The notes: generated by a model not told the origin, from the sequence alone. Positions 5,719 through 22,800 are shown, counted from the stretch's first letter. The stretch: DNA of 24,713 nt from a bacterium (GCA_024278345.1 JAJRTK010000128.1:1-24713); one strand, 5' to 3'. Translations and numbers: made by a program.

Positions 5719-5821
5719 GAGCCTATCCCCTTGTTTCGCCAGCCACCCCTTAGAAGCCCCGGGCTTTGCGTTGCGTTGGCGCCTGGATGTTGGGTAGTCT
5801 ACTGAGGTATGGTTAGACCAC

Positions 5822-5871
5822 GATATCTCATCACGGATCGTCACGAGGCGGCCAATTCGTGATGAGATATC
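5822..5871. promoter_or_regulatory. Perfect 14-bp inverted repeat in a divergent intergenic region
   Basis: GATATCTCATCACG (5822-5835) is repeated as its exact reverse complement CGTGATGAGATATC (5858-5871), with a 22-nt spacer. It lies between the divergent starts at 5718 and 5922. It could be a pair of operator half-sites for a dimeric regulator or a stem-loop in the leader of the FtsB-like gene. The arms are AT-richer than the surroundings, which favours a protein site over a terminator; there is no T-run. Confidence 0.6.
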
Positions 5872-5921
5872 CAGGAGACGGTTTGTTTCTTGGAAAGGCA
5901 CGATTCTACGGAGGATTCGAC

Positions 5922-6233
5922 GTGGCCGACGAGAGCGCTGGCATTGGTTCCTCGCTGCGAGCGGGAGTTTTAGGCCTTTTCTTTGTGGTACTCTGTGGCT
6001 TGGTGCTTTACTCGTTGGTGGGGCGGCAAGGGCGGGTAAGTGTGCTTCGCATGGAAGCGGAGATCATGGATTTGGAGCACCGCATCGAAGCCCTGAAAGT
6101 AGAAAACAAGGAGCTTGAGCTCACCGTGGCTCAGCTTCGCCGCCCCGGCTTTGCCGCCGAGTGGTTTGCCAGGGAAAAGCTCGGCCTCGTGAAACGCGAC
6201 GAGCGACTCTTCTTGGAGTTGCCTGCGCCTTGA
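5922..6233 (+). CDS. ftsB: FtsB/DivIC-like septum formation initiator protein
   Basis: A 103-residue bitopic membrane protein of the FtsB/DivIC type, which joins FtsL and FtsQ in the divisome. One membrane span (residues 14-34), then a coiled coil (about 38-72) with MEAEIMDLEHRIEALK heptads, then the family tail AREKLGLVKRDE. Length is normal for the family. GTG 5922 is chosen because GGAGG sits 7 nt upstream; the longer frame from 5859 would add 21 residues read through the inverted repeat. FtsB/DivIC paralogues are short and hard to tell apart, so the exact name is less sure than the family. No other division gene is nearby. Confidence 0.82.
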   Translation: MADESAGIGSSLRAGVLGLFFVVLCGLVLYSLVGRQGRVSVLRMEAEIMDLEHRIEALKVENKELELTVAQLRRPGFAAEWFAREKLGLVKRDERLFLELPAP

Positions 6234-6405
6234 TCAAAAAAGAGTAGGAGCGGGAGGCGTCGGCACCGTTCATCGTTGCGGCCACCCTCCCAAAAAACCG
6301 CGCAGCGTACAAAAATGTGGGTGGGGAACTCGTTGCTTTTCATTGCGACGGGTCCTTGCTGGCTCCCTGGCGAGAGTCTGATGCCGAGCGCAAGCGAGCC
6401 GCAGC

Positions 6406-6545
6406 CCAAGCTCCCAGCAGAGGTCCCAAGGCCGCCTCCGCCGGGCTCCAGGGATGGAGGCCCTGGCGCTGTGCCCGAAATTTACTGGGTGGCTGGGTCC
6501 GAGCGACAGCGAGAGCTACCGAAGGCACCACCGATGGACGAAGCC
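6406..6545 (+). repeat. Dispersed intergenic repeat, copy A
   Basis: About 140 bp closely matching 16208-16348 on the same strand. Identical blocks include AAGCTCCCA, GGCCGCCTCCGCCGGGCTCC, GAGCGACAG and CCGAAGGCACCACCGATGG. It contains a hairpin CCAGGG(N7)CCCTGG (6448-6466). It fills most of the gap between the FtsB-like gene and the convergent DUF1573 gene, ending 20 bp from the latter's stop. The preceding stretch 6234-6405 shows no gene. Confidence 0.85.
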
Positions 6546-6564
6546 GTAAGAGGTTTGCCGGCTC

Positions 6565-7665
6565 TTACCTGGCTGGTGGTCCTTGAGGTGGCTTCCCGAC
6601 GAATCCGTAGATGGGGACATTGAGAGTCGGTTCGCTCTTGAGATCGGTCTTGAGAACGATGTTACCTCGGATGGTGCCCTCCGGGGCCTTTGGGCTCAGG
6701 ACGATCTCCAGCTCGTAGAGCTTTCCTTCCTCAATGGGCGAAATTTCGGCGCTGATAAAGGGGAGCGGCGACTGGATGCTGGTGATTTTGAAGGGTGTTT
6801 CGCTGTTTTGGTTCGAGACGCGGAGCTTTCTTCGAACCTCGGTACCGGGAGTAACGGTTCCCAGAACAGCAAACTTAGGCTGCACGCGTAGGTCGCCGAG
6901 GATCTGGGCAAAGAAACGAACAGTGTGTTGCCGTGCCTTAGGAATGTCCGTAGCCACCGTGATTGAGCCATTGTGGCGCCCAGGTTTCGCGTCTCCTGAT
7001 ATTCTGGCTGTGATTTCGTAGCCGTTTCGGCCAGCTTCGCTGTCGGGTTTGACTTCGATCTGGAGAAACGGCCAGTCGCTCTTCGCTTCCACAAGTTTGA
7101 AGGGTTTCTTGTCGGTGCGCCAGAGGCGGATGCGTTGCTCCGCAGGCTCGCCTTTCTTGAGGCGGTTTCCGAAGCTAAGGAAGGCTGGTTCCACGTTGAG
7201 GACGGTGAGAATTGTGCCGGAAACCGTGAGCCTCACTTCAGGCCTTGCGGGATCATTGGACGTGACCGAGATCGTTTTTCGGAAGGGCCCCTTCTTACCG
7301 GTAGAGTCGAAAGTTACGTCGATAGAGCCTTCGCTGCCGGCGGGGATATTCTTGTCGCTGGCTAGAGCCGCGGTGCAGCCGCAAGATGCCCGCACCTTTT
7401 CGATGATGAGCTCGGCATCACCCCTGTTCTGGAATTTGAACGTATGACTGACCTTGGAGTTCTGGGCAATGTCTCCAAAATCGTGGCCTTCCTGAGAGAA
7501 TTCAATCTTCGGCGCCTTTTCAGGGGGGTTGGCAGATTCCGCGTTGGCCAGTGTTGGCCCAAGGCTATCTGCATCAGGCGACTTAGGAGCCCTATCCAGG
7601 CCCGACAAACCGTAGAGCAAGCCCACGACGAAAAGGACCTTGAACCACACGTTGCGACAGATCAT
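6565..7665 (-). CDS. DUF1573 domain-containing exported protein
   Basis: A 366-residue extracytoplasmic protein of unknown role. The N-terminus is a signal peptide or anchor (MICRNVWFKVLFVVGLLYGL). At about residues 52-135 lies the DUF1573 domain with its hallmarks: HDFGDI, the paired cysteines ASCGCT, VTFDSTGKKGPFRKTI and SNDPARP. The remainder reads as two further Ig-like beta domains with similar strands (SFGNRLKKGEP; VLGTVTPGTEV). ATG 7665 is chosen because GGAGG sits 6 nt upstream. DUF1573 proteins are common in Bacteroidetes- and Planctomycetes-type genomes and are probably envelope proteins. Its own promoter lies at 7761-7790. Confidence 0.87.
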   Translation of the reverse strand: MICRNVWFKVLFVVGLLYGLSGLDRAPKSPDADSLGPTLANAESANPPEKAPKIEFSQEGHDFGDIAQNSKVSHTFKFQNRGDAELIIEKVRASCGCTAALASDKNIPAGSEGSIDVTFDSTGKKGPFRKTISVTSNDPARPEVRLTVSGTILTVLNVEPAFLSFGNRLKKGEPAEQRIRLWRTDKKPFKLVEAKSDWPFLQIEVKPDSEAGRNGYEITARISGDAKPGRHNGSITVATDIPKARQHTVRFFAQILGDLRVQPKFAVLGTVTPGTEVRRKLRVSNQNSETPFKITSIQSPLPFISAEISPIEEGKLYELEIVLSPKAPEGTIRGNIVLKTDLKSEPTLNVPIYGFVGKPPQGPPAR

Positions 7666-7760
7666 CCTGAACCTCCGCGACGAAGCGGCCGAACCCCTAC
7701 CTGGCCGAAGCCGGGCATGAACTCGGACCATGCCCCATGAGGGTTGAAAAAGAAGAAGCT

Positions 7761-7790
7761 ATTGTAAGAGCAGTTGTTTAGAAGAGTCAA
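7761..7790 (-). promoter_or_regulatory. Sigma70-type promoter for the DUF1573 gene
   Basis: On the minus strand TTGACT (7790-7785) and TACAAT (7766-7761) are separated by 18 bp; each matches consensus at 5 of 6 positions. It lies between the DUF885 stop (7799) and the DUF1573 start (7665), implying that the DUF1573 gene is transcribed at least partly on its own. This is the best promoter match I found in the window. Confidence 0.6.
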
Positions 7791-7798
7791 AATGGCGG

Positions 7799-9493
7799 TC
7801 AGCAACCAGGTCTCTTGAGCTTGTCGCTGATCCAGTCTTCCAAAAGTTGGGCAAGGATCGGGAGGCTTACGGCACCGTTTCCAAGAATTTTGTCGTGAAA
7901 CTCCTGGATGTCGAAGTCTGCCGCAAGTCGTCTTTCGGCTGTTTTTCGCAAGCGCCACATTTCTTGCTGCCCGATTTTGTAGGAAACGGCCTGGCCTGGC
8001 CAGGTGAGGTAACGATCAATTTCGTTTTCAATGTTATTTTTCGCCAGCGGTGTGTTGTCCGCCAGGAATTCCATCGCCTGGCCGCGGCTCCAGCCCAAGG
8101 CATGGAGACCCGTGTCGATGACCAGTCGGCACGCACGCCAGGCATCAAAGCTCAGGACGCCGAGCATGCTCAGCTCGCCACTATAAAGGCCCATCTCCTG
8201 TGCCAACCGCTCAACGTAGAGCGCCCAGCCTTCCACGTAGGCCGTCACGCCCACGTGGCGGCGGAAACTAGGAAGATTTCGAAGCTCTTGGGCGATGGCG
8301 ATCTGGAGATGATGACCGGGAATCGACTCGTGGAATGCCAGGACCTCTGCCTCATACCGGGGCCGGGTTGCCGGATCGCACGTGTTGACGTAGTAGATGC
8401 CGGGTCTCGATCCATCGGCCGCTGGCTGCCGGTAGTAAGCAATGGTGGAGTCTTTTTCTTCGTTGGCCGGCACGGGCTGAACTTGGCAGGACGCAGCCGG
8501 AAGTCTGCCAAACCAGTTGGGAATGATTTTGGCGGCGCGCTTCAGTGCATCTTCCGCCTGGGCCTGAATCTCTTCCCGGGTCTGGAAATGGAGTTGAGGG
8601 TTAGAGCGGAGGTGTTCGAAGATCCTTGGAAGCTCTGTCTCGCCCAGGAGCCGTTTCCCGAGCCCCAGCATTTCTTCGCGGATTCGCGTCAACTCCTCAA
8701 GGCCGATCTGGTGGATTTCCTTGGCTGTGAGATCTAGGGTCGTGTAAGCCTTGAGAAGGGTTTGGTAGGCTTGCGCCCCATCAGGCAGGTGGACCAATCC
8801 TGCCTTGGCGTTGCCCCGAGCAGCGGGGAGTATTTCGTTTTTGAGCAGATCTAGGTAGCGGACAAATGCCGGTCTTGCCAAGTTTTCCACGGCCTGAGTC
8901 ATGCGTCGTTCGAATTCCTCGGAGTCTACCTTGCTCCAGCCATTTCGGTTTTTTCCCACCGGCACCAAGAGATCCCATTGGGCGGTAGGCGTTGCCAACA
9001 TCGTCTCCACCTGGGAAATCACCTTGACCACCGAGGCCTTGGGAGCGACTTTTCCCTGAGCTAGTGAGTGTCGGAGATTGTCGGTGTGCCCATCGATGTA
9101 GTCCCCGATCTTCTCCCAACGTTCTGCCATTTTAGACCCAAGCTCCGGAGTCGAGGGATCCTGGAGCTGCGCTGTCATCGCCAAATGGGTCTGAATTCCG
9201 GCCATGGGATCAATGGTCCAGAGGTCAAGGCCGGCCCGCAAATGGATAAGTTGGCTGTCGATTTCCCACTGAAGGCACTTTGCCGTAACCTGCTCCTCAG
9301 CATCCAAGGAATCAAGATCCAGTTGCGCCAACTTTTCCCGGGTCGCTTCCAACCATTTTCCCATCCGTTCGCGGCCCTCGGGCGAGGGATCGGGCATTTC
9401 GGAATCGAAGCGCCGGTCCCCCAGCATGGTTGCCGAGAGAGGGTTTTGGCGAAGGAATTCTTCCCAATAGTCGTGGGCGATTTGCTCGATCAT
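7799..9493 (-). CDS. DUF885 family putative zinc metallopeptidase
   Basis: A 564-residue protein of the DUF885 family. The signature HESIPGHH is at residues 388-395, a HExxxxHH-type metal site; the flanks AEVLAFHE and TAYVEGWALYVERL match the family. Near the C-terminus is PGQAVSYKIGQQEM, typical of DUF885. I chose ATG 9493 because GAGGAG lies upstream and the family begins near this IEQIAHDYWEEFL segment. Many relatives carry signal peptides; this one does not, so a cytoplasmic location is inferred. The family is related to carboxypeptidase-like metalloproteases, but activity is shown for few members. It lies upstream of the DUF1573 gene on the same strand (133 bp gap). Confidence 0.9.
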   Translation of the reverse strand: MIEQIAHDYWEEFLRQNPLSATMLGDRRFDSEMPDPSPEGRERMGKWLEATREKLAQLDLDSLDAEEQVTAKCLQWEIDSQLIHLRAGLDLWTIDPMAGIQTHLAMTAQLQDPSTPELGSKMAERWEKIGDYIDGHTDNLRHSLAQGKVAPKASVVKVISQVETMLATPTAQWDLLVPVGKNRNGWSKVDSEEFERRMTQAVENLARPAFVRYLDLLKNEILPAARGNAKAGLVHLPDGAQAYQTLLKAYTTLDLTAKEIHQIGLEELTRIREEMLGLGKRLLGETELPRIFEHLRSNPQLHFQTREEIQAQAEDALKRAAKIIPNWFGRLPAASCQVQPVPANEEKDSTIAYYRQPAADGSRPGIYYVNTCDPATRPRYEAEVLAFHESIPGHHLQIAIAQELRNLPSFRRHVGVTAYVEGWALYVERLAQEMGLYSGELSMLGVLSFDAWRACRLVIDTGLHALGWSRGQAMEFLADNTPLAKNNIENEIDRYLTWPGQAVSYKIGQQEMWRLRKTAERRLAADFDIQEFHDKILGNGAVSLPILAQLLEDWISDKLKRPGC

Positions 9494-9750
9494 GGGGGCT
9501 TTCTCCTCGTTCAAGGAAAGTGGGTTTCGGCGCAGCGGTTTGGGAAAAACAACGCGGAGACTCTTGCCCGGGGGACCCTGATTCAGGTGCCCGGAGTGGC
9601 TCGTGTGGCGGCCGGGGGGCGAAAAGTGATAAGCGAGTGGCTTGTCAGAGGCATGGCCAGAGCATGGCAGAACCATCAAGTGGCCTTGTATAGCAAGTGA
9701 CGCTTAGTGTTTCCAGAACAGGAGCCATCCCGCGGAGGGCATGACGCCTC

Positions 9751-9786
9751 GTTGGAGTCTCCAACCCATTTTGGAGGAGAAGGGGG
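9751..9786 (+). promoter_or_regulatory. Leader of queF with two mutually exclusive hairpins
   Basis: TTGGAG occurs twice (9752-9757 and 9771-9776) around one CTCCAA (9759-9764). The leader can form GTTGGA-GTC-TCCAAC (9751-9765), or the centre can pair forward as CTCCAA-CCCATT-TTGGAG (9759-9776), covering the start of the purine-rich ribosome-site region (9773-9786). That is the geometry of a translational on/off switch. No preQ1 aptamer consensus is visible upstream, so the ligand, if any, is unknown. The rest of 9494-9750 shows no gene. Confidence 0.35.
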
Positions 9787-9793
9787 AATCGCA

Positions 9794-10165
9794 GTGAGCA
9801 CCACTCCGTCAAAGCAGTTGGAGACCTTTCCCAACCCCTGCCCGGAAAGGCCCTACGAAGTCCAATTCCATTGCCCGGAATTCACCTGCCTCTGTCCCCT
9901 CACGGGGCAGCCCGATTTCGCCGATATCGCCATTACCTACATTCCCGCGGAGCTCTGCATTGAACTAAAATCCCTCAAGCTTTACCTCTGGTCCTATCGC
10001 GATGAAGGGGCTTTTCACGAGGCAGTCACAAACCGGATTCTGGACGATCTCGTTCTAGCCGCCGCCCCCATCTGGATGGAGGTTGTGGGGGAGTTCTACG
10101 TCAGAGGCGGCATCGAGACGTCCGTACGGGTAGCTCACGGGGAACGCCCGCAAGGCGCGCCGTGA
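9794..10165 (+). CDS. queF: NADPH-dependent 7-cyano-7-deazaguanine reductase QueF
   Basis: Reduces preQ0 to preQ1 with NADPH in queuosine biosynthesis; acts in the cytosol. This is the short, unfused QueF type at 123 residues. Cys34 in CLCPLTGQPDF is the thioimide-forming cysteine and Asp41 the proton donor; the substrate-binding pair His75-Glu76 (GAFHE) falls at the expected 42-residue spacing from the cysteine. The segment ELKSLKLYLWSYR is also characteristic. GTG 9794 is chosen because a GGGGG ribosome site lies 7 nt upstream and the protein then begins just before the conserved TFPNP. Other queuosine genes (queC, queD, queE, tgt) are absent from the window, so it is an isolated pathway gene. 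Confidence 0.96.
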   Translation: MSTTPSKQLETFPNPCPERPYEVQFHCPEFTCLCPLTGQPDFADIAITYIPAELCIELKSLKLYLWSYRDEGAFHEAVTNRILDDLVLAAAPIWMEVVGEFYVRGGIETSVRVAHGERPQGAP

Positions 10166-10215
10166 AACAGAGGCCATGGTTTGGGGCAGGAACGATGGAT
10201 CTATGACGCGTGAAA

Positions 10216-10245
10216 TGGACATTCTGGCAGCGCTGGTGCTAAGAT
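10216..10245 (+). promoter_or_regulatory. Possible promoter of the acyl-CoA carboxylase operon
   Basis: TGGACA (10216-10221, 5 of 6 to the -35 consensus) and TAAGAT (10240-10245, 4 of 6 to the -10) are 18 bp apart, about 100 bp upstream of the carboxyltransferase start. Placement is right for the operon promoter; the match is moderate. Confidence 0.35.
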
Positions 10246-10346
10246 TCCCGCCGTTTCTATTGGAAGCCGCAAGCTCATGCGGCGCGGGATGGAGGGTTTC
10301 GGGTGGTCCTTAGCGGATCGGCCGACGCCGGATTTGGAGTGGACCG

Positions 10347-11894
10347 ATGTTGAAACGGAAGCTCGAAGAGCTGCGGCGGCTGGATACCAAGGCGGAGCTT
10401 GGTGGCGGGAAGGCCCGCATCGAGCGACACCATGCGGCCGGAAAAATGACGGCGAGGGAACGGATTGACTTTTTGGTGGATCCCGGTTCCTTCGTGGAGA
10501 TCGACAAATTCGTGACCCACCGTTGTCGCCATTTCGGGATGCAAGAGAAGCGTTTCCTGGGCGACGGCGTGGTGACGGGGCACGCCACCATTGATGGACG
10601 GCTTGTGTTCCTCTTTTCCCAGGATTTTACCGTTTTCGGCGGGTCTCTGTCCGAGGCCTACGCGGAGAAAATCTGCAAGATCATGGACACGGCGGTGGGG
10701 GTGGGCGCGCCAGTCATCGGATTGAACGACTCCGGCGGCGCAAGGATCCAGGAAGGCGTTGTTTCTCTTGCCGGTTACGCGGATATCTTCTTCCGGAATG
10801 TCCAGGCTTCCGGCGTCATTCCTCAGATTTCGGCCATCATGGGGCCTTGCGCCGGAGGCGCCGTTTATAGCCCGGCCATGACGGATTTCACGCTGATGGT
10901 GGACGGCACGAGCCAAATGTTCATCACGGGTCCCGACGTGATCAAGGCCGTGACTCACGAAGAAGTGACCTTTGAGGATCTCGGCGGAGCTAAGACCCAC
11001 GGCGGCAAGAGCGGTGTCTCCCATTACACCGCCACCGACGAGCGGGACTGCCTTCTCTTCATCCGGGAACTTTTGGGCTATCTGCCCTCCAACAATTGCG
11101 AGGATCCACCCCTCAAGAAGACGGACGACCCACCGGATCGTGCCGACGAGGACCTGAATTCCGTCGTTCCCACCAATCCCAACAAACCCTACGACATCCG
11201 AGAGATCATCACCCGAGCCGTAGACGATGGCGGCTTTCTTGAGATCCACGAGGAGTTCGCCAAGAACCTGGTGGTGGGGTTTGCCCGTTTCGATGGCCGC
11301 TCCGTTGGAATTGTGGCTAACCAGCCCGCGCATCTGGCCGGGGTCCTGGATATCGACGCTTCAGTCAAGGGCGCCCGCTTCGTCCGTTTCTGCGACGCCT
11401 TCAACATCCCCCTGGTGGTCTTCGAGGACGTGCCGGGCTTCCTGCCGGGGACCGAACAAGAGTGGCGCGGCATCATCCGACACGGCGCGAAACTGCTCTA
11501 TGCCTTCTGCGAGGCCACGGTGCCCAAGATCACCGTCGTCACCCGAAAGTCCTACGGCGGGGCTTATTGTGTCATGAACTCCAAGCAGGTGGGTGCCGAC
11601 CTCAACATTGCCTATCCCATGGCCGAGATCGCCGTCATGGGCCCTGATGGCGCGGTCAATATCGTCTACCGCAAGGAGATCCTGGCCGCCGAGGATCCCG
11701 AAGCGTTTCGCGACGGGAAGATCGCCGAATACCGCGAGGAGTTCGCCAACCCCTTCGTCGCCGCCCGCCGTGGCTACATCGACCGCATCATCGAACCAAA
11801 AACCACTCGCATGGAGATCTGCCGGGGCCTTCGCGTCCTGGACAACAAGCGCCAGGTGAGCCCTTCCAGGAAACACGGAAACATCCCTCTTTGA
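10347..11894 (+). CDS. pccB: Acyl-CoA carboxylase carboxyltransferase subunit (PccB-like)
   Basis: A 515-residue carboxyltransferase that moves CO2 from carboxybiotin to an acyl-CoA, most likely propionyl-CoA to give methylmalonyl-CoA. Both crotonase-like halves are present: N-terminal GGARIQEG and the oxyanion loop [16 protein letters not shown], and C-terminal [19 protein letters not shown] and [10 protein letters not shown]. The end, KHGNIPL, is the conserved PccB tail, so the gene is complete. Length and full-length similarity favour propionyl-CoA or broad acyl-CoA carboxylase over the split AccA/AccD type; methylmalonyl-CoA decarboxylase alpha subunits look alike, but the biotin carboxylase encoded downstream argues for carboxylase. 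It is first in a four-gene run; a 198-bp gap without a supported gene separates it from the biotin carboxylase. Confidence 0.95.
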
Positions 11895-12092
11895 GCTGCC
11901 ACGAGCGCTGCACGGTTTCTGGAGGATTCCATCGACTCCCCCGAATCATCGTCTGCCGGTAGCGACTTTTCTTGGAGTTGCGTTCCGCTCCTGTCGGGCG
12001 CGGGCCCGCACCCGCCATCCGCCACTCCACACCGACCAAGCCGGGCCACGAACCGCCGGTCATCCATCGCCCTGAACAGTTCGGAAAACCCC

Positions 12093-13628
12093 ATGAACCA
12101 CCCCCAGAAGCCCATGAATCGCGAAATCAAGAAGATCCTCGTGGCCAACCGCGGCGAGATCGCCGTCCGCGTGCTCCGGGCCGCCAAGGAGATGGGGATC
12201 GCCACCGTCGCCATCTATTCCGAGCCGGACCGGAAGGCCCTCCACACCCTTTTAGCCGACGAGGTGCGGCTGGTGGGGCCTGCCCCCTCGTCCGCCAGCT
12301 ACCTCGACCAGAAGGCCGTCCTGGATGCGGCCCTGGAGACCGGCGCCGACGCCATCCATCCCGGCTATGGATTCCTGGCGGAGAATGCCGGTTTCGCCAC
12401 ACTTTGCCAGGAAGCCGGGATCGAGTTTATCGGCCCGGCTCCAAAGACCATTGCCATGATGGGAGACAAACTCCAGGCCCGGGAATTGGCGCGGCGCGCC
12501 GGAGTGCCGCTGGTCCCGGGCAGTGCCGGTCCCGTGGATCCTGGATCCGTCCTTGAGGAGGCCGAGGCCATCGGTTTTCCCGTGATGATCAAAGCATCGG
12601 CCGGCGGCGGCGGCAAAGGGATGCGCATCGCCCGCCATCCCGGCGAGCTCCAGTCCTTGTTCCAGATGGCGCGTTCCGAGGCCCAGTCGGCCTTCGGGAG
12701 TGATTCCGTCTACCTGGAGCGGTTTGTGGAAGAGCCGCGACACATCGAAATCCAGATTCTGGCGGACAAGCATGGGAACGTCGTTCACCTCTTCGAGCGG
12801 GAGTGCTCCGTTCAGCGCCGCCACCAAAAGGTGATCGAAGAGTCTCCAGCCTCTTGCCTGGAACAGCATACGCGGGACGAAATGGCCGCCGCCGCCGTGG
12901 AGTTGGCCCGGCAGTCAGGGTACATCGGCGCTGGAACGGTGGAGTTCCTTTTCGATGCCCGGCGCGGGGAGTTCTACTTTCTTGAGGTGAATACGCGGCT
13001 CCAGGTGGAACATCCGGTGACCGAGATGATCACGGGCGTCGATCTGGTGGTGCAGCAGATCCTCGTGGCTCGTGGCCAACCCCTTGAGCTCCGACAGGAA
13101 GACCTCTTCGTCCGCGGAGCCGCCATCGAGTGTAGAATTTATGCCGAGGATCCGTCTCGAGGTTTCATTCCTTCCCCCGGCCTGATCCGGAAGCTACGGT
13201 TTCCCCGTGGCCCAGGCGTCCGCGTGGACGAAGGCATTTACGAGGGATACGAGGTGCCCATCCACTACGACCCGCTCTTGGCGAAGCTCACCTGCTGGGC
13301 GACCACGCGGCAAGCCGCCATCGCCAGGACCCGCCGGGCGCTCTCCGAGTGCGTCGTAGCCGGGATCAAGACGCCCATCGAACACTATCACCACATTCTG
13401 GGGAGCAAGCTTTTTCGTAACGGCGGATACACCACGAAGATCCTGGAGCAGATCGCCCTCCCGGAGCCATCGGAGGAAGACCTCCTCGTGGCAGCCATTG
13501 CCGCGGGCATCGCTAGGCTCCGAGGGGAAGAAAAACTTTCCGAAAAAATTACGGAAAATGGCTCGGGCAATGGCATGAGCCCGTGGAAACAGGCGGGCCG
13601 GCGAGCAGTTCTACGCTCCCGTTGGTAG
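12093..13628 (+). CDS. accC: Biotin carboxylase subunit of acyl-CoA carboxylase
   Basis: A 511-residue biotin carboxylase: ATP- and bicarbonate-dependent carboxylation of the biotin on the carrier protein. Order seen: N-terminal ILVANRGEIAVRVLRAAKEM, ATP-grasp glycine loop KASAGGGGKGMR, RRHQKVIEESP, the catalytic EVNTRLQVEHPVTE, and the C-terminal IKTPIEHYHHIL. The protein stops after this domain plus a tail of about 40 residues, so it has no fused biotinyl domain; that is supplied by the next gene 10 nt away. Two starts are possible, ATG 12093 and ATG 12114 (MNREIKKILVANR); neither has a strong ribosome site, and 12114 is closer to the usual family start. Confidence 0.96.
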   Translation: MNHPQKPMNREIKKILVANRGEIAVRVLRAAKEMGIATVAIYSEPDRKALHTLLADEVRLVGPAPSSASYLDQKAVLDAALETGADAIHPGYGFLAENAGFATLCQEAGIEFIGPAPKTIAMMGDKLQARELARRAGVPLVPGSAGPVDPGSVLEEAEAIGFPVMIKASAGGGGKGMRIARHPGELQSLFQMARSEAQSAFGSDSVYLERFVEEPRHIEIQILADKHGNVVHLFERECSVQRRHQKVIEESPASCLEQHTRDEMAAAAVELARQSGYIGAGTVEFLFDARRGEFYFLEVNTRLQVEHPVTEMITGVDLVVQQILVARGQPLELRQEDLFVRGAAIECRIYAEDPSRGFIPSPGLIRKLRFPRGPGVRVDEGIYEGYEVPIHYDPLLAKLTCWATTRQAAIARTRRALSECVVAGIKTPIEHYHHILGSKLFRNGGYTTKILEQIALPEPSEEDLLVAAIAAGIARLRGEEKLSEKITENGSGNGMSPWKQAGRRAVLRSRW

Positions 13629-13638
13629 GGTAAATAGA

Positions 13639-14148
13639 ATGATCGATTACGAAGTGACGTTAAGTGGCGATTCAAAGAGGCTCCGGATTGAGCGTTGTGA
13701 AGGGGGATACAAAGTCGATATCGACGACCGGGAATTGTTTGTAAGCTGGACCGACCTAGAGCCCGGTCACCACTCCATCTTGCTAGGTGGCCGCCAGCGT
13801 GAGCTCCACGTCGTTCAGGAGCGTGACAGGGTCTATGTCCACTGCGGAGCCGCCGCCAAGGAAGCGCGGGTACAGGATCTTCGCCAGCGCCGGCGAGGCG
13901 GAGCCGCGGCAGGTGACGGCAGGTTCGAGATCAGCGCCGCCATGCCCGGCAAGGTCGTCCGCGTTTTGGTGGAAGAGGGGCAAACCGTGGAAACGGGCCA
14001 AGGAATCGTCGTCCTGGAAGCCATGAAGATGGAGAACGAATTGGGCGCCGGCCAGGCCGGGATGGTCAAAGAGATCCTTGTCAAAGCCGGAGACCTGGTG
14101 GAAAATGGTGCGCTCCTGGTACGTCTCGGCCCGCTAGAGAAGGCATGA
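13639..14148 (+). CDS. Biotin carboxyl carrier protein
   Basis: A 169-residue carrier for the acyl-CoA carboxylase. The C-terminal 75 residues form a biotinyl/lipoyl-type barrel with the canonical EAMKMEN motif; Lys130 is the expected biotinylation site. AMPGKVVRVLVEEGQTVETG and GMVKEILVKAGDLVENG are the two pseudo-symmetric halves. Residues 1-90 form a separate beta-rich region ending in an Arg/Ala-rich hinge (LRQRRRGGAAAG), probably for docking to the carboxylase. It begins 10 nt after the biotin carboxylase stop and its own stop overlaps the next start by 4 nt, so the genes are almost surely co-translated. Confidence 0.93.
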   Translation: MIDYEVTLSGDSKRLRIERCEGGYKVDIDDRELFVSWTDLEPGHHSILLGGRQRELHVVQERDRVYVHCGAAAKEARVQDLRQRRRGGAAAGDGRFEISAAMPGKVVRVLVEEGQTVETGQGIVVLEAMKMENELGAGQAGMVKEILVKAGDLVENGALLVRLGPLEKA

Positions 14149-16040
14149 GATTCACCACAAAGCTTGAGGGGGATGTGGCTCGCTGTTCCCGCCGGTGGCA
14201 GCGTTGGATCCGGAGCCTGGTTCGCCTCTGGCGCTGGACTCCCGTGGTCTGGTTCGACGAGCAGTACCAAAGCAGTATCTCCGGAGTGCCTCTCGATCCG
14301 CTGCGAGGCGCCAAGATCCTGACCTTCTTGAGCCTGGAGAACCTCGTGGGGCGCCGGGAAGTCCGTCGGCCGTTGGCTGTTTCCATGGAGCTTTTGAGGC
14401 GGGTTCACTCCGATGCCTACTTGGAGGAGCTTCAGCGACCCGGTGCGCTGACTCTTATCCTGGGAATGGAAGTGGCACAGGAGGAGCAAGATCACGTGCT
14501 CTCCTTGCAGCGGTTGATGGTGGGAGGGACCGTGGCCGCGGCGGAGCAGGCTTGGAGGTCCGGAGGCATTGGTTTTCACCTTGGTGGCGGCTTTCACCAC
14601 GCCTCTCCGAACCGGGGAGAGGGATTTTGTGTCTTCAATGACATCGTGGCGGCTGTCCTTCACCTCAGGGATCAGGGGTTTTCCGGGAAGATCCTGGTCG
14701 TGGACTGTGATTTGCATGACGGCGACGGCACGCGGGCCGCGTTTGCGGAGGATGCCACGGTCCACACTTTTTCCATTCATAATCACCATCTGGGGCCCAC
14801 CGATGTGCTGGAGGCCACCAGCGTAGAGCTGGGGAGCGGCATCGGTGACCACCGCTATATCCAAGAGCTGGAGCAACGGCTACCCGAGCTTCTGGCTTCA
14901 TTCCGGCCCGAGCTGGTGATCTACTTGGCCGGAGCGGACCCCGCGGCCGATGACCAGATCGGAGACTGGGAGATCAGCGCCCGAGGTATGATGCGCCGGG
15001 ATCGGCTTGTAGTTTCCGCGGTACGGAAAAAGAACTCTCTGCCGCTGGTTGTTTTGTTGGCCGGTGGTTATGGATCTGGCGCGTGGCGTTATGGGGGAAG
15101 ACTGGCATCGCTCCTCTTGTCCGGACGTTTCATTGAGCCGCCTTCCAACGAGATGGCGACCATGGCGCGGCTGAGGCACTTGGCGAAGCTCCTGCCAGCA
15201 TCCACCTTGATGGGAGAAAAGAGGGATGACGATTTCGGCCTCACCGAAGAAGATGTCATGGGAGGACTTGGGGTTCACGGGCGGGAAACCCGATTCTTGG
15301 GCTACTATTCCACACACGGCATCGAGTTGGCTTTGGAGCGGTACGCCTATTTGGCGCAGATCCGGGCCATGGGGTTTCCCCGGCCCCGCCTGAGCTTTGA
15401 GCTCCACGTGGGAGCAGCCCATCGGATGCGCCTCTACGGAGACGAAACCCGCCGGCTCCTTCTCCTGGAGCTGGTGGCGCGAAGGGATGGAGCAACGATT
15501 CGGGAGATGGAGCTTCTCCATATCGAGTGGCTTCTTCTCCAGAACCCGCGAGTCAGTTTTCCCCCCGGCCGACCGCCGTTACCGGGGCAGGAAAAACCCG
15601 GACTGGGACTCCTCCACGAGACCGTTGCCTTGCTCCTCTTGGTATGCCAGCGTCTGGACCTCGACGGTTTGGCCTTTGTTCCATCGAAGTACCATCTTGC
15701 CAAGTTTGGTGAGGGTCAGGGGCTTCGGTTTCTGGATCCCGTGGCCGAGGCTCGTCTCATTGCAATGAAAAATGCCTTGGGCAGGTTCTCGTTATCCACG
15801 GCGAGCTGGCTGGTGGAGAAGGGCGGGCTGGTCGATGTCCAGACGGGAAAGGCAGCGGTTTGGGAACCCAGTGTGATGGTGCTTCCCTGGTCTGCCAGTC
15901 TAAAGGAGAAACTGGAAGATCCGGACTACAAGGAGCTCGTCGTCGTTGCGCTCCCTGATTTCCGTTACAAGGCGATATCGGAATCGGGTCGTGAGACGCT
16001 TGTAGGGCATCGAGAAGGGGGGCTGGGTGATGCAATGTGA
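14145..16040 (+). CDS. Histone-deacetylase-family amidohydrolase with C-terminal extension
   Basis: A 631-residue zinc-dependent deacylase of the arginase/HDAC fold. The N-terminal half (about 35-330) has the full active site: GGGFHHAS with His151/His152, the zinc ligands Asp189 and His191 in DCDLHDGDGT, Asp265 in GADP, and the transition-state Tyr309 in AGGYG. Bacterial members act on acetylated polyamines, acetoin-related substrates or acyl-lysine; the substrate here is unknown. The C-terminal half (about 331-631) is soluble and not assigned to a named domain; it contains LSFELHVGAAHRMRLYG, PGLGLLHE and YHLAKFG. The start overlaps the carrier-protein stop as ATGA, tying expression to the acyl-CoA carboxylase. 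There is no signal peptide, so it is cytoplasmic. Confidence 0.9.
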   Translation: MRFTTKLEGDVARCSRRWQRWIRSLVRLWRWTPVVWFDEQYQSSISGVPLDPLRGAKILTFLSLENLVGRREVRRPLAVSMELLRRVHSDAYLEELQRPGALTLILGMEVAQEEQDHVLSLQRLMVGGTVAAAEQAWRSGGIGFHLGGGFHHASPNRGEGFCVFNDIVAAVLHLRDQGFSGKILVVDCDLHDGDGTRAAFAEDATVHTFSIHNHHLGPTDVLEATSVELGSGIGDHRYIQELEQRLPELLASFRPELVIYLAGADPAADDQIGDWEISARGMMRRDRLVVSAVRKKNSLPLVVLLAGGYGSGAWRYGGRLASLLLSGRFIEPPSNEMATMARLRHLAKLLPASTLMGEKRDDDFGLTEEDVMGGLGVHGRETRFLGYYSTHGIELALERYAYLAQIRAMGFPRPRLSFELHVGAAHRMRLYGDETRRLLLLELVARRDGATIREMELLHIEWLLLQNPRVSFPPGRPPLPGQEKPGLGLLHETVALLLLVCQRLDLDGLAFVPSKYHLAKFGEGQGLRFLDPVAEARLIAMKNALGRFSLSTASWLVEKGGLVDVQTGKAAVWEPSVMVLPWSASLKEKLEDPDYKELVVVALPDFRYKAISESGRETLVGHREGGLGDAM

Positions 16041-16118
16041 GCCGCGGCGGCTGCGGGTAGGCCTGTTGGGCATCCACGCAAAGCGGGACAATGGGCCACC
16101 GGGGAAAAAACTTGGCAT

Positions 16119-16205
16119 CGGACAACGCCGTGCTCCGCTCGGCGGGTAACGCCTAGCGTTACTCGGCGGTTGTCCGGGGACTCCGGCTGCGGCCCTGTGG
16201 GCCGC
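16119..16205. repeat. Nested hairpin cluster adjoining repeat copy B
   Basis: CGGACAAC (16119-16126) pairs with GTTGTCCG (16169-16176), extended by GCCG/CGGC with one bulged G. Inside is a perfect hairpin GTAACGC-CTA-GCGTTAC (16146-16162). A third perfect hairpin, GCGGCCC-TGT-GGGCCGC, follows at 16189-16205. Together they form a branched structure 79 nt after the deacylase stop. It has no T-run, so it is more like a mobile or REP-type element than a terminator, though it may stop or stabilise the operon transcript. Confidence 0.65.
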
Positions 16206-16207
16206 GG

Positions 16208-16348
16208 CGCAAGCTCCCATCGCAGGTCCGGAGGCCGCCTCCGCCGGGCTCCAGGGCCGGCGGCCCTGGCGCCGTGCCCGGAGTCCACAGGGTGGCCGGG
16301 GCCGAGCGACAGGAAGAGCTGCCGAAGGCACCACCGATGGACGAGGCC
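16208..16348 (+). repeat. Dispersed intergenic repeat, copy B
   Basis: About 141 bp closely matching 6406-6545 in the same orientation. It contains a stronger version of the internal hairpin, CCAGGGCC-GGC-GGCCCTGG (16251-16269). Similarity to copy A ends at CCGATGGACGA(A/G)GCC, exactly where similarity to the helicase nuclease domain begins. Confidence 0.85.
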
Positions 16349-16615
16349 ATGAAAGAGTCTCTCCACTTCGCGGGACAGGGGGGAACGGAACTGTCTGGTC
16401 TCGGTGGGGACCCGGATGTGTCGCTCTTCAAAAAACAGGTTGCGGTCGCTCTTGCGCTCCACGGCTGGCAGGTCCGGGAACGGGTTGGTTGCAAGGGCTT
16501 TGCCATCTACGTGGCCATCGTGGATCCGAAGGATTCCGGGCGCTGCTTGTTGGGCGCCGAATGCGACGGATCGACCTATGGGAAGCTCTTGGGCTGGAAA
16601 GGAGCGGCGTGGTGA
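16349..16615 (+). pseudogene. Remnant of a DUF4011/DUF3320-helicase nuclease domain
   Basis: An 88-codon frame from ATG 16349 aligns with the nuclease region of the large minus-strand protein: MKESLHFA against LKEYLHYA, HGWQVRERVG against HGWQIHEQVG, FAIYVAIVDP against FAIDLALVDP, and GAECDG against GLECDG. It lacks everything before and after, and the first catalytic Asp (FAID) is Tyr (codon 16508-16510). The frame is open back through repeat copy B to 16274 and ends in TGGTGA, overlapping the symporter's GTG start. I read it as a decayed fragment of a second helicase gene, though a short translated protein is possible. Confidence 0.75.
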
Positions 16616-18489
16616 GCTTGACATTGCTTGATTGGGTGATCCTGGTGGTCCTCATCAGCGGGGTTTTTGGGCTGGGCGTGGCGTTGGCAAGACGGGCGAG
16701 CTCCAGTGCGGAGGATTACTTCCTGGGAGGGCGGAGTCTTCCGTGGTGGGTGCTGGGTACCTCCATGGTGGCGACGACGTTTGCCGCCGACACTCCGCTG
16801 GCGGTGACAGGTATCGTCCGGGAACATGGGATCTGGTTCAACTGGTTCGGCTGGCACATGGTCTTTGTGCAGATGCTGGCGGTGCTCCTTTTTTCTCGGC
16901 TTTGGCGGCGTGCTGAGGTGCTTACGGATCTCGAGCTCATCGAGCTTCGTTACGACGGCCGAGCAGCCGCCGTCCTTCGCGGGTTCAAAGCGTTTCATTT
17001 TGCCGTCATCTACAATCTGATCGTCCTTGGATGGGTCATCAAGGGATTGTCCACGGTTCTTGCCGTTCTCCTGGGAGTGGACGAAACGACGGCGGTCTTG
17101 GGTTGCATCCTCTTGGCCATGGTCTATTCGACCCTGGCCGGTTTCTGGGGAGTGGTGGCCACGGACGTTTTCCAGTTTTTTCTTGCGATGATAAGTGCGC
17201 TGGTCCTGGCCTGGTTCTCGGTCCGCGAGGTGGGCGGAATGTCGAGTCTCATGGAGCAGCTCTCCGGTAGGCCGGACTTGACGGCCATCGTCCCTTGGCC
17301 CGGTATTGACGGAAAGCCTTTTTTCCAGAGCGCCTTTTTCCAGTGGCTCATCTTCCTGACGGTGATGTGGTGGTCCAGCCATACCGCCGATGGTGGCGGT
17401 TACTTGATCCAAAGGATGATGTCAGCCAAGGATGAGCGACACGCTCAGTGGGGAACCCTTTGGTTCTCCACGGCATACACCGCTGTCCGGTACTGGCCCT
17501 GGATCGTCGTGGCCCTTGCTTCCCTGGTTCTGCTTTCCCCCTCAGAGGTGGCCCAAGCAGGCGCCGGAGCCAAAGGCGCCTACCCGCTGATGATGAAACG
17601 AGTGCTGGGACCCGGATGGATGGGATTGATGTTGGCTGGTTTCGTGGCGGCTTTCATGTCCACGGTGGATACTCACGTCAATTGGGGTGCCTCCTATCTG
17701 GTCCACGACGTCTGGAAACGGTTCTTTCGCCCCAAGGCCACGGAGCGCGAGACAATCCTGGTGGCGAAGATTGTCACCGTGCTGCTGGTGATCGTTGCTG
17801 CCGGTGTTTCCAGGTTCATCGGTTCCATCGGGAGCGCTTGGATCTTCGTTTGGTCGATGTCGGCCGGGATTGGAGCGGTACTCATCTTGCGGTGGTTCTG
17901 GTGGCGCTTGACCGCCTGGTCGGAGATCGTGGCCTTGGCGTCGAGTCTCTGCCTGGCCTTCGCCTTCGAGGGGTTGGCCGCCATTCAGGCGTATGGAAGA
18001 GGGGATTCCTATCACTTGTTTGAAACACCGGCGTTTCTGGGAGGGATGCCTCTTATGCAGCACCACAAGGCCCTCATCATCGTGGCGATTTCAACGGTCT
18101 GCTGGATCGTGGCCACCAGGTGGAGCCGCCCCGTGGAGTTGGAGCATCTCCGGCGGTTTTATCTCCAGGTCCGACCGCCCGGTGCCTGGGGACCTGTCAT
18201 GAGTGCCGGCGCCAAAAAAGAGCGCGGCAGAGCTCTCTTTTTTCTGGCGTTGGGGTGGATGGGAGGGTGTTGCTTTGTGCTGGGGCTCAACGGGGCGATT
18301 GGGCTTTGGCTCATGGGCAAGGGGGGGCAGGCGATGGTCTGGGGAATGGTGAGCCTGATGGGTGCTATCGTGGGCGGCCTGGTTTTGGCGCGACAAACCA
18401 CGTCCAGAGGGGGCCGACTAGATTCGCTGGCTGGTGACGATGCTTCCCTGAAAGCGCCTGGTCTCGGCTCCGAGTCCCGGGAAGCTTGA
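16612..18489 (+). CDS. Sodium:solute symporter family transporter
   Basis: A 625-residue inner-membrane transporter of the SSS family (LeuT fold), expected to couple Na+ entry to solute uptake. About 13-14 hydrophobic helices are visible. Family signatures include DYFLGGRSLPWW after helix 1, TSMVATTFAADTP in helix 2, and YSTLAGFWGVVATDVFQFF in the middle of the protein. The substrate cannot be told. GTG 16612 is chosen because AGGAG lies upstream and the protein then starts at helix 1 (SLTLLDWVILVVLI); upstream codons belong to other frames of the nuclease remnant. After helix 11 an additional C-terminal region with two to three helices is present, as in the longer SSS subfamily. There are 140 nt to the next gene on the same strand. 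Confidence 0.92.
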   Translation: MSLTLLDWVILVVLISGVFGLGVALARRASSSAEDYFLGGRSLPWWVLGTSMVATTFAADTPLAVTGIVREHGIWFNWFGWHMVFVQMLAVLLFSRLWRRAEVLTDLELIELRYDGRAAAVLRGFKAFHFAVIYNLIVLGWVIKGLSTVLAVLLGVDETTAVLGCILLAMVYSTLAGFWGVVATDVFQFFLAMISALVLAWFSVREVGGMSSLMEQLSGRPDLTAIVPWPGIDGKPFFQSAFFQWLIFLTVMWWSSHTADGGGYLIQRMMSAKDERHAQWGTLWFSTAYTAVRYWPWIVVALASLVLLSPSEVAQAGAGAKGAYPLMMKRVLGPGWMGLMLAGFVAAFMSTVDTHVNWGASYLVHDVWKRFFRPKATERETILVAKIVTVLLVIVAAGVSRFIGSIGSAWIFVWSMSAGIGAVLILRWFWWRLTAWSEIVALASSLCLAFAFEGLAAIQAYGRGDSYHLFETPAFLGGMPLMQHHKALIIVAISTVCWIVATRWSRPVELEHLRRFYLQVRPPGAWGPVMSAGAKKERGRALFFLALGWMGGCCFVLGLNGAIGLWLMGKGGQAMVWGMVSLMGAIVGGLVLARQTTSRGGRLDSLAGDDASLKAPGLGSESREA

Positions 18490-18568
18490 CACGGTGGGAG
18501 TTTCTCTGTTCCGGTGGTGGAAGGATATCGCGGGGATCCTCGCGAGCAGCGGTCGGCCGCAGGGAACT

Positions 18569-18583
18569 CGCGCCGCAGGCGCG
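18569..18583. repeat. GC hairpin between symporter and propeller genes
   Basis: CGCGCC-GCA-GGCGCG is a perfect 6-bp stem with a 3-nt loop, followed by no T-run. It may be a weak transcription pause or a REP-type remnant. Confidence 0.4.
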
Positions 18584-18629
18584 GGTCGGTGCCGAAGTGA
18601 GCAGCACACAACCAAGAGAAGGATCGACC

Positions 18630-19877
18630 ATGACCACGAAAACCTTGCTCCATGGAAGACGTTTTTCGGTGATCCACGGACTTTACGTGGGCATCTTTCT
18701 CTTATGTATAGCCTTTTGGGTGGGCGGAATGGCCGGCTGTGGGAGTGAATCCGAGGCAGTTCCACCGTTGACCCGTTCGGACGGAGCTCACCGCCTGACC
18801 CTGGCCCCGGCGGGAGCCTCGGACCAAAACCCCTGTTTCTCCCCCGACGGGAGTTTTCTAGTCTTCACGCGGTTCAGTAACGGCTACAATGTGGGACCCG
18901 GTCACCTTTACCGCTTGGACCTCGATGGAGCGCGGGCCGCCGGCGATCCGGTTCCCCTCACGGCCGGGGATTTCGACGATGTGAACGTGCCATGGGGCTG
19001 TTTTTCTCCGGATGGCCAGAGGGTTGTGTTTGCCTCCGATCGCCAGGAGGCCAACGATTTCTGGACCCTTGCACCTGATTCCGGGGCCACCGACATGCAG
19101 CGCGTGACTTGGCACGGCGAGCTGCCTGTTTGGATCGAGCATGTCTTTTCTCCTGACGGTCTTTCTCTTGCGTTCGAGCGGGACCTGGACGTAGCCACGG
19201 AAGAGGCGCAGCGCGCTAGTGTTTGGGTGGTGGAGCTCGCTGGGCAGCAGGTTCGCCGCCTCACGAATGCGGACGGTCTGTTGGACGACCGCCTCCCCTC
19301 GTGGTCGCCGGATGGGCGGATGATCCTGTTTCAGAGGCGTTTACCGCCGTCCGACCTCTGGCATGCCCTTCTTATCCCCGCCGTGGGCGGAAATACCTTT
19401 GATATCACCGCGAACGCCGACATTACCGTGCCGGGCCACGATACCGATCTCTCTTGGGTGCCGTCGGGGGAAGCCGTCTTGACTAGCAGCGACCTGGATG
19501 GCATACCGCTGCCGAACATCTGGGCACTTCTGGTGGCGGGAGGTCCGCCTCTTCGCGTGACCACCAGCGATGCTCACGAGGATGGTGCGCCTTGCGCATC
19601 GCCTGACGGCGGTTGGGTTGCCTTCGAATCGCACCGAACCACCGATGAGAACTCCCCGACGGACCTCTGGATTGTTCCCATGCCGCAATCCGTGGCTGCC
19701 AATAATCCCATGAGTTTCGCCGGGCTGGCAGTCCTGGCCCTGTTCATGACCTACGGGCGAATCACTAGGAAGCCCGCCCCATCGGCCACCACTTCTCCCG
19801 ATTTCAATAGGTCGTCCAGCGCTTTTGTCACGGATTTTTCCAGCTTTGCTCCTAGCCTCTTGAAGCCCAGGAGCTGA
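18630..19877 (+). CDS. PD40/TolB-like beta-propeller lipoprotein
   Basis: A 415-residue envelope protein. The signal segment (about 14-36) ends in MAGC, so Cys37 is a probable lipid-attachment site. Six PD40 motifs mark six blades: FSPDGSFLVF, FSPDGQRVVF, FSPDGLSLAF, WSPDGRMILF, WVPSGEAVL and ASPDGGWVAF. Such propellers resemble TolB and the N-terminal domains of prolyl oligopeptidases, but no hydrolase domain follows. A hydrophobic stretch (MSFAGLAVLALFMTYG) followed by RITRK lies near the C-terminus. ATG 18630 is chosen because AGAGAAGGA lies just upstream and a lipoprotein signal follows; the frame is open back to 18486. The last 42 codons overlap the minus-strand helicase gene. Confidence 0.87.
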   Translation: MTTKTLLHGRRFSVIHGLYVGIFLLCIAFWVGGMAGCGSESEAVPPLTRSDGAHRLTLAPAGASDQNPCFSPDGSFLVFTRFSNGYNVGPGHLYRLDLDGARAAGDPVPLTAGDFDDVNVPWGCFSPDGQRVVFASDRQEANDFWTLAPDSGATDMQRVTWHGELPVWIEHVFSPDGLSLAFERDLDVATEEAQRASVWVVELAGQQVRRLTNADGLLDDRLPSWSPDGRMILFQRRLPPSDLWHALLIPAVGGNTFDITANADITVPGHDTDLSWVPSGEAVLTSSDLDGIPLPNIWALLVAGGPPLRVTTSDAHEDGAPCASPDGGWVAFESHRTTDENSPTDLWIVPMPQSVAANNPMSFAGLAVLALFMTYGRITRKPAPSATTSPDFNRSSSAFVTDFSSFAPSLLKPRS

Positions 19878-22800
19878 ACGGTCCTGGATGGGAGCTCTTC
19901 GGGGACGGCGCCCCGCTCCCTGGCCAGGACCACGCGGATTGCTTCTTGGAACTCTTCGGGTGCGATGAGTTTGGGCTCCATGGGACAGTCAATCCCGTGG
20001 CGCCGGCGAACGGGAGCTCGATTCATGGAGGGAAGCCAGAGAAAATCGCCGCGTCTCTTCAGTTTCTTTTTGCGGTTTGCCTCATCGATAGCTCGGCCGA
20101 TGACTTGGCGTGGCTTTTTCGTCAACCGCGTCGAATAAGCCTTGGCGATGACTCGCATCGTTTCGTCGATGTGGATCGGGCTTTCCGTGGCCACGACTTC
20201 CAGAACGACAGATGTCAAGCGCCCCAGGGGAAGTTTCAGGAGGGCGGCGCGATCACCGCGGTCCACGACGAGCATTCGCTGGTACGGCTGGATTTGCAGC
20301 TCTTGGGAAGGCGCTGCCGGGGAGGCGCCTTTTGCCGAAGGCGCGCTCCTCTTATTCCCGCCCCCTCTCTGCTTCCTTCCTTTTTGTTTCCCCAACGCTG
20401 GCTCCTCCAGGAGCTTGTCCACGAGGGCTTCCCATTCCTCGCTGTCAGGGCTTCGAGTTGGGATCCGCTTTTGGGTCCGCGGTTGCCGGTTCACGGATTC
20501 GAGTCTCTTCAGGAGCTCCTTGAGGCTGTTTTCCGGGCGCCGGAGCCAGTCAAGGCACCAGATGCGTTGAACCCGCCACCCAAGATTCTCTAGGACGGAT
20601 GGCCGGATGCGGTCCCGGTCCCGAGCGGAAGAAAGACTCTCGTATATCGGGCCATCGCATTCCAAGCCCACAAGATAACGCTCTGGGTTCCTGGGATCCA
20701 CCAGGGCGAGGTCGATGGCGAAGCCGGGTCCGCCCACCTGTTCGTGGATCTGCCAGCCATGCTGCGCAACTGCTTCGTAGACCCTCCGCCCGAAAGGAGA
20801 GCCGCCGCCACTACCCCGGGTGCCGGGCTTTCTTGCGTCGCCATGCTCCGCGTAGTGGAGGTATTCCTTCAGTGCGGCCACGCCACGGGCCTTGGTGGCG
20901 CCAAGGTTTAACTCCTCCGCCCGGATGGAGGAAAAGAGTACGCACTGGCTCCGGGCACGGGTCACAAGCACATTGAGTCGCCGCCACCCGCCGTCTCGGT
21001 TCAAAGGCCCGAAGTTCATGGAAAGCTTCCCCTCTTCATCCCTCCCGTAGCCGATACTCAGGAAGATGACATCCCGCTCGTCTCCTTGGATGGTCTCCAA
21101 GTTTTTGACGAAGAGAGGTTCCGTAGGATGACGTTCGGAGAACTGTTCCAGGAAGTCATCTTCTTCGTGGCGTGCCAGGAGTTCCAGCTCCAGCTCGATT
21201 CGCCGTTGTTGGGCTATGCTGAATGCCCCGATCCCCAAAGAGAGCTCCGGCGCTTCCCGGGTGTGCCGGAGAACTTCGTGGGCGATGAGCCGCGCCTCCA
21301 GTGGGTTGTCACGACCCTTCCCTCGCTCGTAAACACCCTTTCCCACGAATCGGAACCGGAGGCCCGTTCCCGAAATCCCCGTGGACGGGCTGGGAAAGAC
21401 TCGCAGTTCCCCATCGTAGAATCGCTCGTTGGAAAACTGGATAAGGCTCTGGTGGCGGCTCCGATAGTGCCACCTGAGACGGTGCCGGTGACGCAGATGC
21501 ACGATTCCCAGGCCCAGGATGCTCTCCAGATCGCCAGCGCTGAACGTCTCTCCAGATTCCAGAGATTCAGCTTCCAGAGAATCCGCGGCGATCTTGTTGA
21601 AGAAACTCGTGGGTGGGAGCTGTTTTTCGTCGCCTACCAGCAGGAGCTGTCGCCCTCTTGCCACGGCTCCGAACGCATCGGCTGGTTCCACCTGGCTTGC
21701 CTCGTCGAAGATCACGGCATCGAAAAGGATATCCCCCGGTTCCAGGAACTGAGCGACGGAAATCGGGCTCATCATGAAGCAGGGTTTGATGGACTGGATC
21801 AGATCGCCCACGGTGGAGAGCAGTTTTCGCAGAGGCAGATGGCGCCGCTTTTTTCTGATCTCGGCCTGGAGGATGCCCAATTTTGATCTGCGGGAGGCGC
21901 TGTAACCAAGATTCGGCCGGCGGTGAGCCAGGATTTCCACAAGTCTATGGCGGCTTGCTTGGAGCCACGCCGTATCGAGTGCCGCGAACTTTTCGATGAG
22001 CTTTTCGTGACTGTCCCCGCGGAACCCTTTGAGTTCCTGCCTTTGATGGATGGCCTCGTCACACCAAAGCCGGTAAAAGTGCCGCTGGAAAGTCTTGGCC
22101 AAGCGCCCAGCGTCAACGGCGGTTTCGGGAGCCTCCAGCCACTCCAAAAAATCGGAAAGACCGGCCCGCCGGCACTGCTGAAGCCTTCCCCGATACGCGG
22201 CCCAGTCTTGAAGCGATTCCATGGCTTGCGCCAGGGGGTTCAACCGCGAGCCTAGCGCTTCCCAAGTCACATCTTGCCAATCCTTGCCCAGCCACTCCCT
22301 CTCACTGCTCTCCATCACTTCAAGCCAGGCCGCCCACTCCTTGGCTACCTCTTCCAGGGCGGCCCTGGATGGCTCGAAAACCCGCCGCAGTTCTTCCCGT
22401 CGTTCCGACGCCACGATTTCCCGCACGGATGGTTCTCCCACGGCCCTTCGAAGGATCAACTGCCGGATGGCGATGACGCTCTTGGCGATCTTTTCCAGAA
22501 GATCCCAATCTCCGTCGATCCCCTTCCAATAGCTGTCGAAGAGAGGAGCATACGTTTCGACGTCCCGTCGGAGATCCTCGCGAAGCTTGCCGCTCTCCAC
22601 CACAGCCGACAGGAGCACCAGTTGTTGGGCGAGCCTTGGTTTTCGCACCTCCGGTTGCAGCATTGCACGGATCTGCTTGGAGTCCCGATACCAGGAAGGC
22701 CGAAAAAAACGGAGCCACGATTTCCCATGTTCCCGTCTTCGATGGAGGAGGTCTGGAGAAAAAGTCGTCTCTGCCGCGGACTTTAGGATCTTGGACCAGG

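Follow-up and report, generated by a model that had tools for sequence, protein, structure and literature searches.

A fusion of an HDAC11-like deacylase domain to a predicted GNAT-fold domain, encoded at the end of an acyl-CoA carboxylase operon

Background

The partnership of an acyltransferase with a deacylase of the histone deacetylase (HDAC) family has a precedent in AcuA and AcuC (PMC8556138, PMC13039410). The writers and erasers of bacterial lysine acylation, above all of longer chains, are still mostly an open question. Here we describe a 631-residue protein from a bacterium in which an HDAC domain is followed by a predicted Gcn5-related N-acetyltransferase (GNAT) fold. Its gene lies on the + strand of a stretch of 24,713 nucleotides (GCA_024278345.1 JAJRTK010000128.1:1-24713); this whole stretch is called the window, and coordinates given without a locus name are counted along it. 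We consider the fusion and its unnamed domain, a new variation on the known acetyltransferase/HDAC partnership, to be more interesting than the position of the gene in a carboxylase operon.

The acuABC genes of Bacillus subtilis resemble the window locus in that an HDAC and an acyltransferase-type partner are encoded together, as writer and eraser, and in the ATGA stop/start overlap shared by acuB and acuC (PMC13039410). The window protein differs in being one chain, with an unrelated GNAT-fold partner and an HDAC of a different branch; none of ten window proteins examined by profile (4816-19877) matched acetyl-CoA synthetase or AcuB. The bacterial HDAC11/class IV (cluster 5) deacylases (9gz5, 9gkv, 9gky) share with it the common HDAC fold, the catalytic residues and the GGGFHH motif, but they are single-domain proteins of about 305-320 residues, whereas the fusion has an extra domain of about 300 residues. 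Canonical GNAT-HDAC fusions (PF00583, then PF00850) likewise have both activities predicted in one chain, but with the reverse domain order, a classical GNAT and a separate HDAC clade. One such protein of 448 residues is encoded in the window's own genome (G000, contig C405; L210:5443-6789, + strand), and similar proteins occur in L205 and L208, the GNAT match being weaker in the latter. In ICL2 of Mycobacterium tuberculosis, a C-terminal GNAT fold belonging to no sequence family is likewise carried by a metabolic enzyme; there the partner is isocitrate lyase, the identity is about 10%, and a sensor role is proven for ICL2 only.

The deacylase domain

The fusion gene and its parts are as follows.

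14145-16040, + strand: HDAC/GNAT-fold fusion protein, 631 residues; an open reading frame with full-length fused homologues in many genomes.
14292-15077, + strand: predicted zinc-dependent deacylase domain, HDAC11-like, residues 50-311; PF00850, E = 3e-51; closest PDB relative Leptospira HDAC11 (9gz5).
14595-14600, + strand: predicted catalytic His-His dyad, H151-H152; kept in 81/81 and 80/81 homologues.
14709-14717, + strand: predicted zinc ligands D189 and H191; kept in 80-81/81.
14937-14939, + strand: predicted third zinc ligand, D265; kept in 80-81/81.
15069-15071, + strand: predicted catalytic Y309; kept in 80-81/81.
15156-15998, + strand: predicted GNAT-fold domain, unannotated, residues 338-618; profile E = 7e-92 to family A2, and an AlphaFold2 (AF2) model.
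15582-15608, + strand: P-loop-like motif PGQEKPGLG, residues 480-488, just N-terminal to helix alpha3; from conservation and its position in the model.

The HDAC half matches PF00850 (Hist_deacetyl) with a score of 175 bits against a gathering score of 27.9. An earlier note on this DNA had described a complete HDAC active site, and the conservation of all six residues agrees with that description; by sequence the HDAC half is intact as a classical zinc-dependent deacylase, the activity itself being predicted. Since one of the patterns used to scan genomes for homologues was built around the His-His dyad and the other from the C-terminal loop described below, conservation at these two places is partly selected for; that of the downstream Asp, His and Tyr residues is independent of the scan.

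The closest relatives of the HDAC half, by both phmmer and Foldseek, are Leptospira HDAC11 (9gz5) and Vibrio cholerae HdaH (9gkv, 9gky), whose solved structures contain dodecenoic acid and decanoic acid, respectively. The GGGFHH foot-pocket motif, found at residues 147-152 of the fusion protein, is a feature of HDAC11, which is a de-fatty-acylase (PMC11532494; also PMC13325672). A Glu lies near the place aligned with the rim glutamate of clade B (Glu94 of hsHDAC11) in the window protein, though not in every homologue. By its best matches the HDAC half is closest to the class IV/HDAC11-like (cluster 5) enzymes, HDAC11 itself being absent from the sequences of our tree. Because both the nearest relatives and the motif are of the HDAC11 de-fatty-acylase type, medium- or long-chain acyl groups are the better first guess, and the HDAC half probably prefers them. 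The acetyl, propionyl and methylmalonyl substrates proposed earlier become less probable in view of the medium- and long-chain preference of these nearest enzymes.

The C-terminal domain

The HDAC domain ends near residue 311 (base 15077), and residues 338-618 form a separate conserved domain that had previously been missed. A model of this domain, built by AF2 from 12 relatives, has a mean predicted local distance difference test score (pLDDT) of 80.5. Structural neighbours of the model (Foldseek E 1e-4; VIA-align 2 Z up to 9.0) have the GNAT fold in all 50 of the 50 listed, the Z scores being 9.0 for NatD, 7.8 for Elp3 and 7.5 for the C-terminal domain of ICL2; Rv1916 is also among the closest. 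The C-terminal half is predicted from this model to have the GNAT fold. We call it a GNAT-fold domain and place it outside any GNAT family, because no profile match to the known GNAT families was obtained. The model of the full-length fusion is modest (pLDDT 70), and the packing of the two domains was not read from it.

The motif forms a PGQxxPGLG loop between strand beta4 and helix alpha3, in which Q482, P485, G486 and G488 are present in 81/81 fused proteins. In GNATs, the loop between beta4 and alpha3 binds the pyrophosphate of acyl-CoA. The top local hhalign match between the domain profile and GNATs, though non-significant, covers the motif loop and the helix.

In a domain survey, the GNAT-fold domain was found in 31 of 386 sampled genomes, fused or adjacent to an HDAC in 10 of the 31. 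Free-standing open reading frames of about 300 residues with this domain are common across genomes. In G001, a genome from the phylum of the window's own, it is joined to a pair of universal stress protein domains, and a universal stress protein gene adjoins a GNAT-fold gene in G064. Loci in which the domain is fused or adjacent to universal stress protein domains are L043:2805-4691, L017:1372-3138 and L097:1333-2829. At L099:7187-8844 (- strand), a free-standing GNAT-fold gene has a 4-bp overlap with a neighbour that by eye resembles acetoacetate decarboxylase.

Distribution and origin of the fusion

A scan of named genomes gave 80 loci with both domains in each, the encoded proteins having at most 48% identity to the window protein. 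Fusions, or adjacent pairs of an HDAC gene followed by a GNAT-fold gene, are carried by Acidobacteriota, Gemmatimonadota, Myxococcota, Krumholzibacteriota, Calditrichota and one genome of the Bdellovibrionales. In the unfused form the two genes lie side by side, separated by 3 bp in L088 and overlapping by 1 bp in L089.

The HDACs paired with the domain across these phyla form a single clade that contains none of 67 other HDACs (SH-aLRT, the Shimodaira-Hasegawa-like approximate likelihood ratio test, 84 in a quick tree). The fused proteins form a subclade within it (SH-aLRT 98), and the two-gene forms (Calditrichota, some Acidobacteriota and others) branch beside the fused forms, a pattern that fits a gene pair that fused later. 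This order of events is also consistent with a tree built from the GNAT-fold domains, which is weakly supported. In the plasmid collection no full-length homologue was found, all matches being to the HDAC part only, and in a search of the open-access literature, subscription papers lying outside it, we found no HDAC joined to a GNAT-fold domain of this kind.

No neighbouring gene common to all fusion loci was found, except for conserved upstream genes in a Myxococcales clade (L086:5425-7640, L136, L140, L142, L143, L149). Directly upstream of the fusion in these loci are genes for a 4HBT thioesterase and a thiamine pyrophosphate (TPP) enzyme related to acetolactate synthase and 2-hydroxyacyl-CoA lyase; the end of the upstream gene overlaps or almost touches the start of the fusion.

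Linkage to the carboxylase genes

In the window, the fusion gene follows three genes in the same direction.

10347-11894, + strand: predicted carboxyltransferase subunit of an acyl-CoA carboxylase, PccB/MmdA type; PF01039, E = 1e-203; 822 bits to mmdA TIGR01117, under the cut-off of that model.
12093-13628, + strand: predicted biotin carboxylase subunit, AccC type; above the cut-off of NCBIfam accC TIGR00514, with Pfam biotin carboxylase domains.
13639-14148, + strand: predicted biotin carboxyl carrier protein (BCCP); PF00364 (Biotin_lipoyl), E = 6e-20; EAMKM biotin site at residue 127.
14145-14148, + strand: ATGA, the overlap of the BCCP stop with the fusion-gene start, read directly from the sequence.

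The earlier note had placed the carboxyltransferase, biotin carboxylase, carrier and HDAC-family genes in one direction with an ATGA overlap between the last two, and both statements hold. By their profile matches, the genes are those of a biotin-dependent acyl-CoA carboxylase with all three components present. The carboxyltransferase and biotin carboxylase genes are 198 bp apart, the biotin carboxylase and BCCP genes are 10 bp apart, and the BCCP and fusion genes overlap by 4 bp. Either acetyl-CoA or propionyl-CoA may be the carboxylase substrate, since the genome has several carboxyltransferase genes of the PccB/MmdA type (four, and one fused) as well as methylmalonyl-CoA mutase genes. Stop/start overlaps of the ATGA type are frequent in operons. 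The overlap supports co-expression of BCCP and the fusion protein; alone it is no proof of a common function.

Outside the window, tblastn searches with the carboxyltransferase, biotin carboxylase and BCCP found carboxylase genes in 0/80 fusion loci, 50 of which have at least 3 kb of sequence on both sides, and in none of the other loci with the GNAT-fold domain. Among 80 HDAC neighbourhoods from diverse families, carboxyltransferases lie near the HDAC in one (L035), which lacks biotin carboxylase and BCCP and whose HDAC falls outside the GNAT-paired clade; two weak biotin carboxylase matches (about 23% identity) resemble other ATP-grasp enzymes. The best 29 BCCP loci outside the window show the usual order of biotin carboxylase and BCCP genes or other carboxylase arrangements, with an HDAC in 0/29. 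A linkage of carboxylase and HDAC as a conserved trait was therefore rejected. The genomes nearest to that of the window were seven others of the same phylum. On these sequences, the linkage is recorded from one genome only. A survey for the linkage across phyla had been proposed; since the linkage was found in no other genome, it is at most a trait of close relatives, the outcome that the note itself had named as refuting. The earlier note knew of no standard operon with this set of genes, and none of the surveyed loci has the combination. Of its interpretation, an operon in which an intact deacylase gene is translationally coupled to that of BCCP stands as a reading of the sequence, and the functional tie to the carboxylase is not supported.

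At L035:2244-8245 (- strand), in another phylum, the single-domain HDAC11-like gene adjoins a thiolase-like gene and two carboxyltransferase genes.

Possible functions of the fusion protein

Most likely the protein is an autonomous acylation switch, in which the GNAT-fold half uses or senses acyl-CoA and the HDAC half takes acyl groups off, and which is tied to the carboxylase operon only locally. We give an even chance to the view that the fusion protein is a single-chain module for reversible acylation, composed of an HDAC11-type eraser and a GNAT-fold writer that uses acyl-CoA. The N-terminal half would be a zinc-dependent HDAC11 (class IV) lysine deacylase whose preferred acyl chains are probably medium or long. 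Acyl-CoA would bind to the C-terminal half at the invariant QxxPGLG loop, a lysine or another amine would most likely receive the acyl group from it, and the HDAC half could clear the same mark again. Writer and eraser would work as in AcuA/AcuC, yet in a single polypeptide, and the GNAT-fold partner is an unrelated one. The position in the carboxylase operon would be a local and recent arrangement giving co-expression, with the carboxylase not necessarily a substrate. Acyl-CoA binding, catalysis by the C-terminal half, the chain-length preference and the target are what we infer in this scheme. A writer is favoured because free-standing forms of the domain are common and because canonical GNAT-HDAC fusions recur. 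Several observations weigh against it. The C-terminal half has no sequence match in Pfam, NCBIfam, PHROG or PDB, and hhalign of its profile against real GNATs gives a non-significant probability of 0.9%. QxxPGLG exceeds the classical Q/RxxGxG/A by one residue, and no catalytic residue was identified in the domain. In ICL2 the GNAT fold senses acetyl-CoA and is not catalytic, and the C-terminal transferase of the fusion is putative. A broader proposal is tentative: an undescribed family of GNAT-fold acyltransferases would, together with an HDAC11-type domain, both write and erase lysine (fatty-)acylation from one chain in six or more bacterial lineages, with universal stress proteins as the partners of sister versions, and here it would be wired to a carboxylase that controls acyl-CoA supply.

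The same structural evidence can be read in another way that we consider possible, if rather unlikely: the C-terminal domain may sense acyl-CoA without being catalytic and thereby turn the HDAC half on or off, as happens to the lyase in mycobacterial ICL2. The C-terminal domain of ICL2 and Rv1916 are among its closest structural matches, classical GNAT sequence features are missing from it, and its partners vary (HDAC, universal stress protein), as expected of a sensor. Acetyl- and propionyl-CoA activate ICL2 via its GNAT-like domain (PMC6788997), and AcuC is likewise under a ligand-binding adaptor, AcuB (PMC13039410). However, partnerless stand-alone versions are common, and the canonical GNATs to which HDACs are joined in other genomes are probably catalytic. 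The view of the earlier note, in which a dedicated deacylase would be produced in constant proportion to the carboxylase and would act on the acylated carboxylase or on modifications derived from acyl-CoA, now appears improbable. The ATGA overlap and the 10-bp spacing upstream imply co-expression, and HDACs do occur near acyl-CoA genes elsewhere, in L035 and the Myxococcales clade, but the survey counts given above speak against it at the fusion homologues, the HDAC neighbourhoods and the BCCP loci alike. A dedicated tie of the fusion to the carboxylase is thus not supported; a link to acyl-CoA metabolism in general is plausible, because in some lineages, such as that Myxococcales clade, the fusion gene has other acyl-CoA genes as neighbours. 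Little probability attaches, finally, to a deacylase of small molecules (an acyl-polyamine, or an acylated carbohydrate or lipid) whose GNAT-fold domain makes the N-acyl product and whose place beside the carboxylase is due to chance. GNAT enzymes have diverse substrates, and the neighbours of the fusion are mostly unconserved. Polyamine deacetylases also occur among HDAC-family enzymes (PMC11532494), but the nearest characterised HDACs are acyl-lysine enzymes.

An HDAC11-type eraser joined to an uncharacterised domain of acyl-CoA type would be a compact system that allows the two halves to be assayed together, and the free-standing and stress-protein-linked relatives give the unannotated domain family a testable function.

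Other features of the window

Promoter and terminator scans gave matches at chance level only, and an Rfam search of the window gave none. Outside the operon, between the fusion gene and a gene for an SSS transporter, one further feature was observed.

16274-16615, + strand: remnant of a REase_MTES_1575-type C-terminus.

Over 81 residues, this remnant has 47% identity to the product of the large helicase-nuclease gene of the window (19751-24535).

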